Part shown: in pieces, positions 52,664 to 57,539 of the stretch | Layout of the letters: every line of letters starts with the position of its first letter | Position numbering within the stretch: position 1 is the first letter of the stretch | Origin: Psychrobacter okhotskensis | Lineage (GTDB): Bacteria; Pseudomonadota; Gammaproteobacteria; Pseudomonadales; Moraxellaceae | Length of the DNA: 64,000 nt | NCBI RefSeq assembly: GCF_013248965.1 | Contig: NZ_JABRVQ010000016.1 | Span: forward strand, 1 to 64,000 | Direction of reading: 5' to 3' | Position numbers and translations under genes: made by a program | The notes under the pieces: generated by a model | Told to the model about the DNA's origin: nothing | What the model saw: only the letters and a program-made list of their open reading frames with translations | The model's database searches: none

Positions 52664-52780
52664 ATGGCAAAGACTATGAATAATGAAAATATGAAAATCA
52701 ATAACAGTAATGACAAGGCTGTGAGCGACAGCCATACAGAAGAATACAAGATAGAAAAAGACGGTCTAACAGAGGAAAGT

Positions 52781-53443
52781 ATGGAACCAGACAGTATCGA
52801 TATCGCACAACTGCGCACCCCTATTAAGGTCGACTTATCTGTTGTCTATGATTTTTTGGGAGCGCGAACCACACAGGCTTGGGTGGAGGCTGCCAGCGCT
52901 GATGTGCCTTTAATCATCCAAGATCATGCCAATTGCGAAAAGAAAGCGGCCGGTACAGCGATGAATCTACTATTCCGCTATGAGTTTTCTTACGACTTAC
53001 AGCGAAAATTGGCGCAGTTAATACGTGAGGAGATGCTGCACTATGAGCAAGTCCTAGGCATTATGAATGAGCGCGAGCAAGAGTGGGGATATCTGAGTGC
53101 GGGGCGTTATGCCAAAGGGTTGCTCAAGCATAAACGTACGCATGAGCCAGCAGCAATGGTTGATGTATTAATCATCGGGGCGTTTATCGAAGCGCGCTCT
53201 TGTGAGCGCTTTGCCGCGCTTGCTGAAGTCATCGATGATGAACGCTTAGCCAAGTACTACCGTTATCTATTAAAATCAGAGAGTCGCCATTTTGAGGATT
53301 ATTTGGCACTGGCACAATCGCTATCTGACGACAATATCGATGAGCGTGTCGCATTCTTTAAAGAAGTAGAAGCAGAGTTGATATCCAGTCCTGACACTGA
53401 ATTACGCTTTCACAGTGGTACACCTGCTGAGCGCTTCAGCTGA
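52781..53443 (+). CDS. miaE: tRNA-(ms2io6A) hydroxylase MiaE
   Basis: Non-haem di-iron monooxygenase that hydroxylates the isopentenyl group of ms2i6A37 in tRNAs reading UNN codons. The iron-binding residues are in QDHANCEKKAAG, REEMLHYEQV, FIEARSCERF and SESRHFEDYLA, the standard MiaE set. I start at 52781 (MEPDSIDIAQLRTP) because AGAGGA lies four bases upstream and the protein then has the usual length of 220. The frame is open upstream to the ATG at 52664, which would add 39 polar residues; that ATG lies in a repeat relic and has no clear ribosome site, so the longer form is possible but less likely. A terminator follows at 53493. Confidence 0.88.
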   Translation: MEPDSIDIAQLRTPIKVDLSVVYDFLGARTTQAWVEAASADVPLIIQDHANCEKKAAGTAMNLLFRYEFSYDLQRKLAQLIREEMLHYEQVLGIMNEREQEWGYLSAGRYAKGLLKHKRTHEPAAMVDVLIIGAFIEARSCERFAALAEVIDDERLAKYYRYLLKSESRHFEDYLALAQSLSDDNIDERVAFFKEVEAELISSPDTELRFHSGTPAERFS

Positions 53444-53492
53444 TAGCTTCTGTCAAATAAGCGCTATGCAAAGATACTCATATCGTATCCAT

Positions 53493-53542
53493 AAAAAAGC
53501 CAACACTAGCGTCTTAAACCATGCCTAGCGTTAGCTTTTTTA
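53493..53542. terminator. Bidirectional terminator between miaE and the small-protein cluster
   Basis: A6-GCCAACACTAGC pairs with GCTAGGCATGG-side CTAGCGTTAGC-T6, with mismatches, around a central loop. The flanking genes converge. Confidence 0.8.
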
Positions 53543-53569
53543 TTTGTCTGTACAGAATATGATGCTCAG

Positions 53570-53776
53570 TTATGACTGTTTCTTATCTTCCATAAGTGGA
53601 CTGTCATACTGCTTGGTATTTTTTGCGACATTATGCGGATCATGATCATCAGTCTCTTGCTCTGCAGCGGCTGGATTTGCCTTTTGTAATGCATCATCAG
53701 GGACGATACCATTATTATCATCTGCATCTTTGAGCTGATGGTTATCATGGTTAACTGTATCATTAGACTTATTCAT
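53570..53776 (-). CDS. Small acidic hydrophilic protein 1 (68 residues)
   Basis: Unrecognised. It consists mainly of Asp, Asn, Lys, Gln and His (NHDNHQLKDADDNNG, EQETDDHDPHN) with almost no hydrophobic core, so it should be intrinsically disordered, of the hydrophilin kind. AAGGAT lies about seven bases before the ATG, which argues for a real gene. It is the last of four similar small genes on the minus strand, each with its own ribosome site, ending at the terminator shared with miaE. A role in desiccation, salt or cold tolerance is inference from composition. Confidence 0.6.
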   Translation of the reverse strand: MNKSNDTVNHDNHQLKDADDNNGIVPDDALQKANPAAAEQETDDHDPHNVAKNTKQYDSPLMEDKKQS

Positions 53777-53887
53777 AACCGATCCTTATTATAATAACTG
53801 TCTTCCACATCGAGCATTCGATAACTTGACGATACTCATATTAATAATGCTCAGATTAGCAATATTCAGAAATATCTTGCTAAGGAA

Positions 53888-54244
53888 TCAGTCTTTTTCA
53901 TCCGGATTTAAGACACGAGTTTGAGCGTTATCAACGTTGGCATATCGATTCATGTCCGTAATACCTTCACTTTTTGGCGCTTCACTGCCCACGGTATCTT
54001 CGTTAATATTGTCATCAAACGGACTGCTGCCCTGTTGATCACGGCGATCAGGCTGACGTGCAGGATTGTCATTGTCATTCACGTGCTCTGAATCTACCAC
54101 GCCTTCTTCGAAAGTGTCAGTACCTTTATTATGATTGGTATGGTTTTCAATATCAGTTTGCTGATTGAATGACTTTTTACTCACTTCTTGAGGATTAATA
54201 TCGTCAATAGGAGTTCTGCTTAACGCAGGGTCTTGAGGTTCCAT
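53888..54244 (-). CDS. Small acidic hydrophilic protein 2 (118 residues)
   Basis: Unrecognised. The sequence begins MEPQDPALSRTPIDDINPQE and is rich in Asp, Asn, Glu, Gln and Pro (NDNDNPARQPDRRDQQ, FDDNINEDTVG). There is no signal peptide or membrane helix and no predicted hydrophobic core. AAGGAC about eight bases upstream of the ATG supports expression. It resembles its three neighbours in composition but not in alignable sequence, apart from recurrent DPA and DxN stretches. Confidence 0.6.
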   Translation of the reverse strand: MEPQDPALSRTPIDDINPQEVSKKSFNQQTDIENHTNHNKGTDTFEEGVVDSEHVNDNDNPARQPDRRDQQGSSPFDDNINEDTVGSEAPKSEGITDMNRYANVDNAQTRVLNPDEKD

Positions 54245-54345
54245 GGTTATGTCCTTATTTGTCGTTTTAATCGGCTAACCAGTGTCTATTGGCAGCACTT
54301 CATTTTTGATGATATACCCAGACTACATAAGTAGGTACACAATTA

Positions 54346-54597
54346 TTAAATATTATTATTTTTACTCAAATCATGAGCATTGAGATCCGCCACGTTTTTG
54401 CCACCTGCTGGTAAGTTTTCTTCCTTACGTGGGTCGGAATAGATCTCGTCTGTTTCCTGTGAATCCTGCTGTGGTCCATCGATATTAGGTTCGTTTTTAC
54501 GACCTTCGTAGCTGTCTGGCGCATTGTCTGGGTGTAAGGCTGCTGGATCACGAACAGCTACCGCTTCTTCATGATTTGGCTTGGTATTATCTGGCAT
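54346..54597 (-). CDS. Small acidic hydrophilic protein 3 (83 residues)
   Basis: Unrecognised. Begins MPDNTKPNHEEAVAVRDPAA and continues with Asp, Glu, Asn, Pro and Gln in excess (NEPNIDGPQQDSQETDE). GAGGGA eight bases before the ATG is a clear ribosome site. No secretion signal. Third from the end of the cluster; spacing to the next gene is about 100 bp. Confidence 0.6.
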   Translation of the reverse strand: MPDNTKPNHEEAVAVRDPAALHPDNAPDSYEGRKNEPNIDGPQQDSQETDEIYSDPRKEENLPAGGKNVADLNAHDLSKNNNI

Positions 54598-54700
54598 AGC
54601 GTGTCCCTCGCGTTTATGATGTTAATTGTTCATTTGACCTGATCGTTGATATTGTTGTTGCTATTGATATCTTTGCTATCAATATCGCTCAAACGGCTCC

Positions 54701-54871
54701 TTACTTATCTGTCCGTAACTCTTCATCAATAAAAGAGGTTTGCTCTTCTTCACTCAGTTTTTCGGGAGTATCAACATTTTTGCCATCGTTTAGATTTTTC
54801 TCGATTTGTTGATTATCGGCCTGCTCTGCTGCTTTTTTGATGTCTGAAGTATCGTTGTTAGTATTACTCAT
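54701..54871 (-). CDS. Small acidic hydrophilic protein 4 (56 residues)
   Basis: A short frame that I read directly: it starts MSNTNNDTSDIKKAAEQADN and ends FIDEELRTDK before TAA at 54701-54703. It is Asn, Asp, Glu, Lys and Gln rich with AGGA eight bases upstream of the ATG. It is the first gene of the four-gene cluster. A helical amphipathic stretch (KLSEEEQTSFIDEEL) may fold on a partner. Function unknown. Confidence 0.55.
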   Translation of the reverse strand: MSNTNNDTSDIKKAAEQADNQQIEKNLNDGKNVDTPEKLSEEEQTSFIDEELRTDK

Positions 54872-55271
54872 GGTGCAATTCCTATTATTATTGTTTAGTG
54901 AACCAATAGTCCTCTATGACACAGATTTATAAACTTGGATACTATCCTAGAAGAGTAAATCGACTGGTTTAATTTTCAATTGAACTTATTTTTGCCATAG
55001 CATAGGACTGACATCAATTATAATTAAGTCAAGCAATAGCACACCAGTGTACTGCCGTATCAATATGTGAATAAATGTGAGGTTACCAGACAGTTTGTAA
55101 CTTATTTTCGCCACAAAAAAACCAAGCATCGGTGATTACCAACGCTTGGTTCAGTGGATAGTTAAGATTGTCGTAAAGCAAACCCCATCGCTGAAAGGCC
55201 ATCAATATGGTTACATTGAATAACCAACCACGAACTACAGCATCCAAGCCGTTTATGATTAAAGGTCTTGC
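54872..55271. other. Intergenic region between ppk1 and the small-protein cluster
   Basis: 400 bp without a gene. It carries the promoter of the four small genes (right part of the cluster side) and the ppk1 terminator at 55115-55151. Confidence 0.5.
55115..55151 (-). terminator. Terminator of ppk1
   Basis: AACCAAGC and GCTTGGTT pair over a 16-base loop. On the minus strand the stem is followed by T7. It lies about 120 bases beyond the ppk1 stop. Confidence 0.75.
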
Positions 55272-57539
55272 CTATACTGGCTCGCCAACGTGATTGATTA
55301 CCCGTAATAAATGGTCTTGAGCAATATGCGGCGCTTCGTCAGCAGCTGGTTGGATTTGCTGCCAAATACCATCGCCATTAAGCGCCCAAGCTTGGACATT
55401 GTCTTGCAGATAGTTAAGTAGCCCATCTTGATATATCTGTTTAAACAGTTTTTTATCTTCGATCGGAAAGGCGACTTCGACGCGATGGAAGAGGTTACGA
55501 TCCATCCAGTCAGCACTGCCGCAATACAAGCGCTCATCACCATCATTATAAAAGTAATAAATGCGTGTGTGCTCTAAAAAGCGCCCAATAACCGAGCGTA
55601 CAGTGATGTTTTCAGACAAGCCTTTGACTTGGGGGCGCAGACAACACATGGAGCGCAAAATTAATTCTATTTTGACACCTGCCTGCGAGGCATCGTATAG
55701 CTTATCGATCAGGCGACGTTCCGTCAACGCATTAACTTTGATAATAATATGCGCGCGCTTGCCAGCCTTGGCATGGGCAATTTCATCATCGATAAAGCTC
55801 ATTAACTTTTCGTGCAAGGTAAATGGCGCGTGCAACAGTTTTTTTAGATTGGCAGGCTTGCCCATACCCGTCAGTTCTTGGAAAATTTTGTGCACGTCTT
55901 CTGAGATGTCAGGGTCAGCGCTGAACAAGCCGTAGTCGGTATAGACTTTGGCATTGGCCGCATGATAGTTCCCTGTGCCTAAATGCACATAACGGCGAAT
56001 GCGATCGTCTTCGCGGCGCACGATAAGCATAAGCTTGGCATGGGTCTTGTAGCCGACAATCCCATAGACCACTACTGCCCCAGCCTCTTGTAAAAAATTG
56101 GCGACGGCGATATTGGACGCTTCATCAAAACGGGCGCGTAGTTCGATGACAGCCGTGACTTCTTTGCCATTACGAGCCGCAGCAGCCAGTGCCTTGACGA
56201 TCTCTGAATTGGTGCCTGAGCGGTACAATGTCTGCTTAATCGCCAATACTTTGGGATCGCTCGCCGCTTCCCAAAGCAGATTGATAATCGGTGAAAACGC
56301 ATGAAAAGGATGATGTACCAAGACATCACCTTTGCGCATGGCAGAAAATATACTGGTACTCTTATCAAGCTTGTCCAGCTCACGGCGAAAGGGCTTGGGC
56401 ACGATATGGGTAAAAGGCTGATAACGCAGCTTAGGTATGTTAAAGTCGAACAGCAAGCGCGTCAGGTTCACAGGGCCATTGACGCGGTACAGCTGATTGT
56501 CATGTAGCTCAAACTCATTAAGCAGGTAATCACTAATCGGTGTTGGGCAATCAGTCGTCACCTCGAGCCGCACTTTGTCACCAAAGCGGCGATTTTCAAG
56601 CTCGCCTTCTAGCGCCTTGGCAATATCATCGACATCATCGGCCAAGTCCAAGTCTGCGTTGCGCGTGAGTCGGAACTGATGGCAACCGGTGACATTCATG
56701 CCGGGGAACAGCTCGCCGATATGCTCATGAATGACAGCCGATAGCATGACATGATGCTCTTTGCCACCGGTCAGCTCGTCTGGCAGACGAATCACGCGCG
56801 GCAGACTGCGCGGCGCTGGGACAATCGCCAGATTAATATCGCGACCAAAGGCATCTTTGCCTTCTAAAGTGGCGATAAAATTGAGGCTCTTATTAACCAA
56901 TCTTGGAAACGGATGCGCCGGATCGATACTTATAGGGGTCAGCACTGGTGAGACTTGCTCAGTAAAATAGCGTTTCATCCATGCCGATTGCTCAGCATTC
57001 AGCTCGTCACGTTTTAGATAACGAATGTCTTCCTTGGCAAGCGCTGGCAAGATGTCTTCGTTCAAAATACGATATTGCTTATCAATCGCCTCATGGGTGA
57101 CGGCGGATAACTCTGCCAACACTTCGCTTGGGCGCATGCCATGCGGACTACTGACCACATCACCGAGGTTTAACTTTTGCATAATGCCAGCGACACGAAT
57201 CTCAAAGAACTCGTCTATATTTGATGAAAAAATAATCAAGAAAAATAGGCGCTCAAGTAACGGATGACGAGAACTGGCGGCTTGTGCTAAGACCCGCAAA
57301 TGAAACTGTAATAAGGACAGGTCACGATTGATATAACTGCTGGGTGAATAGCTACCATCTTCAGAGCGCTGCCATGCAATATCGGTCAGCTGCTGGCTCA
57401 GTTGCTGTATATTCAGCTCGTTAACAGTGGCATTATCGTTAGTCATGACACTTTTATTCTGATTATTAATATCCACCATACTGCCATCCCCTGTCATTAT
57501 CGATATATCATCACTGATGTAATTTATTTTTACTGCCAT
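55272..57539 (-). CDS. ppk: Polyphosphate kinase 1
   Basis: Membrane-associated enzyme that builds inorganic polyphosphate from ATP. The protein has 755 residues, about 65 more than E. coli Ppk, because of an acidic N-terminal leader before the conserved [16 protein letters not shown]. The N-domain has [13 protein letters not shown]; the catalytic domains show [46 protein letters not shown] with the autophosphorylated His, and [17 protein letters not shown]. Several ATGs lie in the leader (57539, 57497, 57479, 57446); the first has AGG just upstream but none is decisive. It is followed by its own terminator. Confidence 0.94.

Follow-up and report, generated by a model that had tools for sequence, protein, structure and literature searches.

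Four tandem genes for acidic, predicted disordered proteins kept together as an apparent transcription unit in Psychrobacter

Between ppk and miaE, almost all Psychrobacter genomes carry at least some of four small tandem genes, g4, g3, g2 and g1, which apparently constitute, as judged from the sequence, one transcription unit with terminator-like hairpins at both ends. All four products are predicted to be disordered, g2 and g3 by AlphaFold and composition, g1 and g4 by composition only, and they nevertheless carry near-invariant cores, a conservation that exceeds the needs of generic shielding. Tentatively, the unit is regarded here as a dedicated stress-protectant operon (g4-g3-g2-g1) whose cores would bind client proteins. 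The bounding hairpins and the near-invariant block and TATAAT found upstream of g4 are new in this analysis.

Psychrobacter is known from cold and saline places, and most work on disordered stress proteins of bacteria has dealt with only one or two of them at once. In this locus, four families devoid of any named Pfam or NCBIfam relative are kept together, genus-wide, behind what looks like a dedicated promoter. As their disordered segments are strongly conserved, it becomes testable whether protection is generic or exerted via specific binding segments. The parts worth following are the single promoter and the disordered cores, both of them conserved.

Organization of the locus

The window, i.e. 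the whole stretch of DNA that was analysed, comprises 64,000 nucleotides of Psychrobacter okhotskensis. An earlier interpretation made from its letters (the sequence-only reading) had described four minus-strand genes of 68, 118, 83 and 56 codons, separated by about 100 bp and each provided with its own ribosome site. This description holds. The four genes are present, the gaps from g1 to g4 measure 111, 101 and 103 bp, and a Shine-Dalgarno-like stretch kept among orthologues lies 5' of each gene; among the 60 nt that precede each start, conservation does not extend beyond it. In the reading order of the minus strand, the genes are g4, g3, g2 and g1. The genes and their flanks are the following:

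52664..53443, plus strand: miaE, tRNA hydroxylase (PF06175), convergent flank and synteny marker
53570-53776, minus strand: g1, 68 codons, last gene of the unit
53888-54244, minus strand: g2, 118 codons
54346-54597, minus strand: g3, 83 codons
54701-54871, minus strand: g4, 56 codons, first gene of the unit
55272..57539, minus strand: presumably, to judge from its sequence, the polyphosphate kinase gene (ppk), flank and synteny marker

The two flanking genes also begin with hydrophilic N-terminal stretches (52664-52830 for miaE and 57400-57539 for ppk), their putative starts being the first ATG.

Coding status

Sequence comparison among orthologues confirms the four ORFs as real, conserved coding genes. 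The pooled dN/dS is 0.175 for g1, 0.088 for g2, 0.127 for g3 and 0.125 for g4, from 242-252 pairs that are non-independent owing to shared ancestry (pS 0.03-0.5). A ratio near 1, which the sequence-only reading had named as evidence against its own proposal, was thus not found. The ORFs are small and compositionally biased, as would be expected of chance ORFs or of an RNA mistaken for genes. This explanation is rejected because of dN/dS values of 0.09-0.18; furthermore, frames and start context are conserved, and none of the three Rfam matches reaches the gathering score, so that its probability is practically nil. Codon usage does not clearly mark the four genes as highly expressed (z -0.3 to 1.3; ranks 34 to 44 among 47 in the window).

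Distribution and synteny

Profile searches covered 348 genomes of the family, 105 from Psychrobacter and 243 from 15 other genera. Within Psychrobacter, g2 was found in 101 of the 105 genomes and g3 in 99 (E up to 0.01 for both), g4 in 96 and g1 in 84 (E up to 0.1 for both), g1 being not found in the other 21. A few of these g4 and g1 matches are fragments, for example g4 of G005 and G039 and g1 of G072. All 99 genomes with g3 among the 348 belong to the genus. At E up to 0.1, the g2 profile matched 106 of the 348 genomes: 101 of the genus, four of the sister genus (G294, G296, G298 and G299, E 9e-25 to 2e-17) and one weak match (G342, E 0.03) that is read as chance. The g4 profile matched 111 (96 of the genus, four of the sister genus, three of them strongly and one at E 1.7e-4, and 11 weakly), and the g1 profile 87, namely 84 of the genus and three weak matches elsewhere that are treated as chance.

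The sequence-only reading had proposed to look for conserved synteny in both Psychrobacter and Acinetobacter. In the genus taken as Acinetobacter, the family profile searches found no relative of g2 or g3, and the two g1 and eleven g4 matches (E 0.001-0.06) are read as chance. At least 61 named records of related loci were retrieved, all from Psychrobacter among the matches listed. In Psychrobacter itself, the genes that are present keep their order and strand in 99/99 loci. These loci, one per genome, come from 99 of the 101 genomes with g2, G028 and G098 being left out. All four genes occur in 73 of them, g4+g3+g2 in 15 and g3+g2+g1 in seven; the others carry g3+g2 (one locus), g4+g2+g1 (one) or g2 alone (two). 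For these counts, g1 of L045 was left out, and g1 of L086 and g4 of L074, for which no start was found, were counted as absent. The counts take account of two corrected calls: the 'g1' of L077 is really g4, and the 'g4' of L059 (genome G005) has only its beginning in common with g4, running from there in frame into g3, so that this locus has a single ORF and no separate g4. In L050 (genome G051), about 0.9 kb of extra DNA lies between g4 and g3.

The unit is dispensable: in G032, a complete-looking genome, 128 bp separate ppk from miaE, and all four genes are missing from this interval. According to the profile searches, G055 carries only g4 of the four. In four genomes of the sister genus, the ppk-miaE interval contains relatives of g4 and g2, with a disordered-looking ORF in the middle. 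This middle ORF has no detectable similarity to g3; standing in the place of g3, it encodes 116-120 aa in L131-L133 and 207 aa in L130, with the motifs EDSVTHQ.G and ETPDIFDN. Since relatives of g4 and g2 occupy the same site in the sister genus, these two genes date back at least to the divergence of the two genera.

Transcription unit and promoter region

The putative signals that surround the four genes are the following:

53491..53543, both strands: bidirectional terminator-like hairpin in the g1-miaE gap, with A- and T-runs (z -6.7 on the minus and -6.6 on the plus strand)
55017..55022, minus strand: conserved -10-like TATAAT, 20 nt after the block
55043..55101, minus strand: near-invariant block of about 59 bp 5' of g4, probable operator or activator site
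55119..55152, minus strand: intrinsic terminator of ppk (z -6.4), separating ppk from g4

The two hairpins, the constant gene order in 99/99 loci and the conserved block 5' of the first gene argue together for a single unit. A pattern scan for terminators found the one of ppk (one found versus 1.3 expected in shuffles), and the hairpin at 53491-53543 is absent from the sites that it listed.

The conservation of the block was assessed in a promoter alignment (A7) of 62 out of 72 distinct candidates, which retains only loci where the block was found (L087, L070, L074, L096, L097, L091 and loci with more than 12 mismatches are excluded). The mean majority identity is 0.911 in the block versus 0.506 in the spacer after it, values that refer to these 62 chosen sequences. 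In the unchosen set, a 33-bp core of the block is present with at most four mismatches, on the right strand and 5' of the first gene, in 80 of the 99 loci. Four of these 80 lack g4 and have the core 114-166 bp upstream of g3, and such a position where g4 is missing fits a promoter of the whole unit. No -35 consensus accompanies the TATAAT at 55017-55022, and a sigma-70 scan gave no minus-strand site there (10 found versus 6.8 expected in the region). The lack of a -35 and the presence of a conserved block in its place suggest that the promoter of g4-g1 depends on an activator.

The element appears to be specific to this locus. Under stricter filters, with 40 candidates scored per genome, its profile matched strongly (E 1.1e-8 or better) once per genome in 93 of the 105 Psychrobacter genomes, the next listed match having an E of 0.002. 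Among the matches listed, 57 places are weak, with E between 0.002 and 0.26; those in G077 and G078 sit at the same four-gene cluster. Twenty others, with E from 0.0046 to 0.19, were inspected together with their surroundings: 14 fall inside an ORF of more than 90 aa or run antisense to one, another four are intergenic, nearly identical to one another and lack a clear target, no convincing ORF was seen near L268, and L264 (E 0.19) immediately precedes a lipoprotein-like gene. These 20 places look like chance, and no regulon is claimed for the block.

Composition, predicted disorder and conserved cores

The acidic and hydrophilic character attributed to the proteins by the sequence-only reading is borne out by measurement. 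In the four proteins of the window, D/E/N/Q/K/R/P make up 58.5-60.7% of the residues and I/L/V/F/M/W/Y/C 14.7-16.9%; the pI is 4.2-4.6, the net charge -8 to -16, and there is neither Cys nor Trp. By charge and hydropathy, all four sit on the disordered side of the dividing line, and so do 366/366 called orthologue sequences, which include the two calls misassigned between genes (L077 and L059). In the AlphaFold models of g2 (mean pLDDT 57.3, pTM 0.15, 36-sequence alignment) and g3 (mean pLDDT 60.6, pTM 0.14, 34-sequence alignment), secondary structure is almost absent. The disorder prediction that had been proposed as a check therefore agrees with disorder, through AlphaFold for g2 and g3 and through composition for all four.

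The orthologues share near-invariant segments, as found in their alignments:

g4, 56 aa: near-invariant C-terminal FI....RTDK
g3, 83 aa: core SY.GRK..P.IDGP.Q.SQETDE.Y.DPRK.E.LP.GGKNV
g2, 118 aa: core EHVN..DNPARQPDRRDQ..FD...NE and C-terminal NRYA..DNAQ.R.LNPD.K
g1, 68 aa: core GIV.DDALQK.NPAAAE....DHDPH

Conserved columns are those invariant or at least 90% conserved in 29-30 chosen diverse sequences. Alignments A1 to A4 used 30 of 47, 30 of 50, 30 of 47 and 29 of 40 distinct sequences, respectively, and A5 and A6, which include the window row, 36 of 42 and 34 of 41. In g2, the segments ARQPDRRDQ, FD and NRYA..DNAQ.R.L hardly change. Whereas the invariant segments are clustered, the N-termini vary in length and sequence among orthologues. 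In some lineages (L038, L064, L083, L089, L094 and L045), the N-terminus of g2 displays, by eye, repeated segments of the KGTxTFxExVVGS type; second matches of the g2 profile accompany these repeat-type segments. The longest g2, in L094, reaches 231 aa.

No kinship was detected by hhalign among g1-g4 (probability 0.1-1.7%). None of the four has a Pfam match at E up to 1. NCBIfam offers no fitting family, as only g4 has a match there, below cut-off; this match of g4 to SctF (E 0.038, 14.4 bits versus a cut-off of 41.7) is at chance level. A PHROG match of g4 (E 0.022) is likewise read as chance, and g1-g3 have no match in PHROGs. A phage search with g2, a plasmid search with g3 and a search for PDB relatives with g2 and g3 gave none.

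Comparison with known disordered stress proteins

The sequence-only reading had likened the four proteins to hydrophilins or LEA-like disordered proteins. Their disordered nature stands as a prediction; membership in either class does not. Hydrophilins are defined by Gly >6%, GRAVY < -1 and mean hydrophilicity >1, according to PMC4190154. The proteins of the window share with the hydrophilins of Garay-Arroyo and Battaglia a high hydrophilicity and disorder. Indeed, -GRAVY, the sign-reversed Kyte-Doolittle mean that was the only hydrophilicity measure computed, is 1.45-1.61 for g1-g4 and exceeds 1 in 81/81 orthologues of g1, 99/99 of g2, 93/96 of g3 and 89/90 of g4. However, their Gly contents are only 1.5, 4.2, 4.8 and 1.8% for g1 to g4, and the proteins of the window are not hydrophilins by this definition, although they may still act in the manner of hydrophilins. 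Among orthologues, Gly exceeds 6% in 0/81 for g1, 11/99 for g2, 60/96 for g3 and 0/90 for g4. The bacterial LEA proteins (LEA_2, LEA_4 and LEA_5) are likewise small, hydrophilic and disordered, but g1-g4 lack any corresponding Pfam match. Plant dehydrins, whose conserved segments are described in PMC8961592, resemble g1-g4 only in the way they may work, by conserved segments placed between variable disordered stretches; Pfam links none of the four proteins to them.

The nearest known system is the DtpA/DtpB locus of Acinetobacter baumannii (ABUW_2433-2443), a BfmR- and ppGpp-dependent locus whose disordered hydrophilins support desiccation tolerance (PMC13232832, PMC12742793). Like the Psychrobacter unit, it comes from a member of Moraxellaceae and brings disordered hydrophilic proteins together within a single stress locus; it differs by the presence of katE, cinA1 and other genes and by encoding two hydrophilins instead of four. 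DtpA and DtpB are likened to g1-g4 by description. No convincing homologue of g1-g4 was found in the genus taken as Acinetobacter. The claim that no operon of such composition had been described is partly offset by dtpA/dtpB (PMC13232832, PMC12742793). For the Psychrobacter cluster itself, no description was seen among the matches listed in open PMC full text. As to the suggestion that a protective role suits Psychrobacter, the cluster is indeed found in this genus, but a link to cold in particular is not supported, as the cluster also occurs in P. faecalis, in species of varied habitats and, through the relatives described above, in the sister genus.

Possible roles of the unit

In the interpretation that is tentatively preferred, with a probability somewhat short of even, the unit is a stress-protectant operon. 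An activator would bind the block and recruit RNA polymerase to a TATAAT devoid of -35. The four proteins would accumulate together during water loss, whether caused by salt, drying or freezing; their hydrated chains would keep cytosolic client proteins apart, thus affording protection, and the near-invariant cores would bind particular clients and give specificity. Segments of dehydrins are thought to bind clients in a similar manner. The disordered hydrophilins DtpA and DtpB provide a precedent in A. baumannii, whereas the low Gly content, the lack of an LEA match, the codon usage, the dispensability of the unit and the weak link to a regulator count against this interpretation. A more precise version, in which the unit would be a bacterial counterpart of dehydrins, with four unrelated modular disordered proteins that have their own client or partner segments and are expressed from one locus-specific, activator-dependent promoter, is rather unlikely.

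Generic shielding needs no near-invariant cores, and for this reason another explanation is nearly as likely as the preferred one, while itself falling short of being probable: the proteins may be adaptors or inhibitors that bind partners rather than bulk protectants, each core folding on one target (for example RNA polymerase, the ribosome, a protease or a membrane protein) and the operon setting the dose. The clustering of invariant columns in defined segments next to N-termini of variable length and sequence, the coexistence in one unit of four cores without detectable kinship (hhalign 0.1-1.7%) and dN/dS values down to 0.09 all speak for such adaptors. Against them stands the absence of any known domain, of PDB relatives (for g2 and g3) and of clear relatives beyond Psychrobacter and the sister genus; as other genera lack clear relatives, the binding of any target would have to be peculiar to the genus or of a new type. 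An acidic, strongly hydrophilic composition kept among orthologues would also suit a reservoir of charge, water or nitrogen, in which Asn/Gln-rich chains with little sequence-specific function would keep amino acids in store or act as a buffer for counter-ions when the medium is cold or salty. This is improbable, as the cores are conserved position by position, the proteins are short and their codon usage is not extreme. Still less probable is an antagonistic or phage-derived unit encoding antitoxins or secreted effectors: small tandem genes and the chance-level matches of g4 (SctF, E 0.038; PHROG, E 0.022) point that way, against which stand the lack of phage (g2), plasmid (g3) and PHROG (g1-g3) matches and the fact that the unit is conserved in a single place, the ppk-miaE interval.

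A candidate regulator

The activator assumed by the stress-protectant interpretation could be a response regulator of the OmpR/PhoB family, such as the BfmR orthologue. In the genome, 11 places match the OmpR-type effector domain PF00486, one of them being the BfmR orthologue (E 3e-67 with BfmR of the PDB), which is found in 102 of the 105 Psychrobacter genomes. In A. baumannii, the cluster of dtpA/dtpB and katE drops strongly in a bfmR mutant (PMC13232832), and the dtpA/dtpB locus requires ppGpp (PMC12742793). By analogy with this precedent, and given the presence of the orthologue, BfmR is a good candidate for the putative regulator of the unit, and no more.

The sequence of the block gives this candidate little further help. 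In the alignment A7, AC occurs at columns 8, 28, 38, 48 and 58, i.e. in 10-bp steps by eye, and AC steps 10 bp apart correspond to the spacing favoured by OmpR-family regulators. This 10-bp period is not significant: it was reached by 348/5000 column shuffles and by 968/5000 and 810/5000 shuffles of three- and five-column blocks, and the spectral power of block conservation is stronger near 17.5 bp. RstA boxes are no commoner in the window than chance predicts (64 found versus 78 expected), two of the 64 being in the block. Upstream of bfmR, no copy of the block was seen by eye among the 30 best BfmR matches, mostly from close relatives; the only echo, spotted post hoc, is GTTTGTAAC, the reverse complement of GTTACAAAC. 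Over some 200 bp, this upstream region (L225; L223-L252) shows strong conservation of its own among these 30 Psychrobacter sequences.
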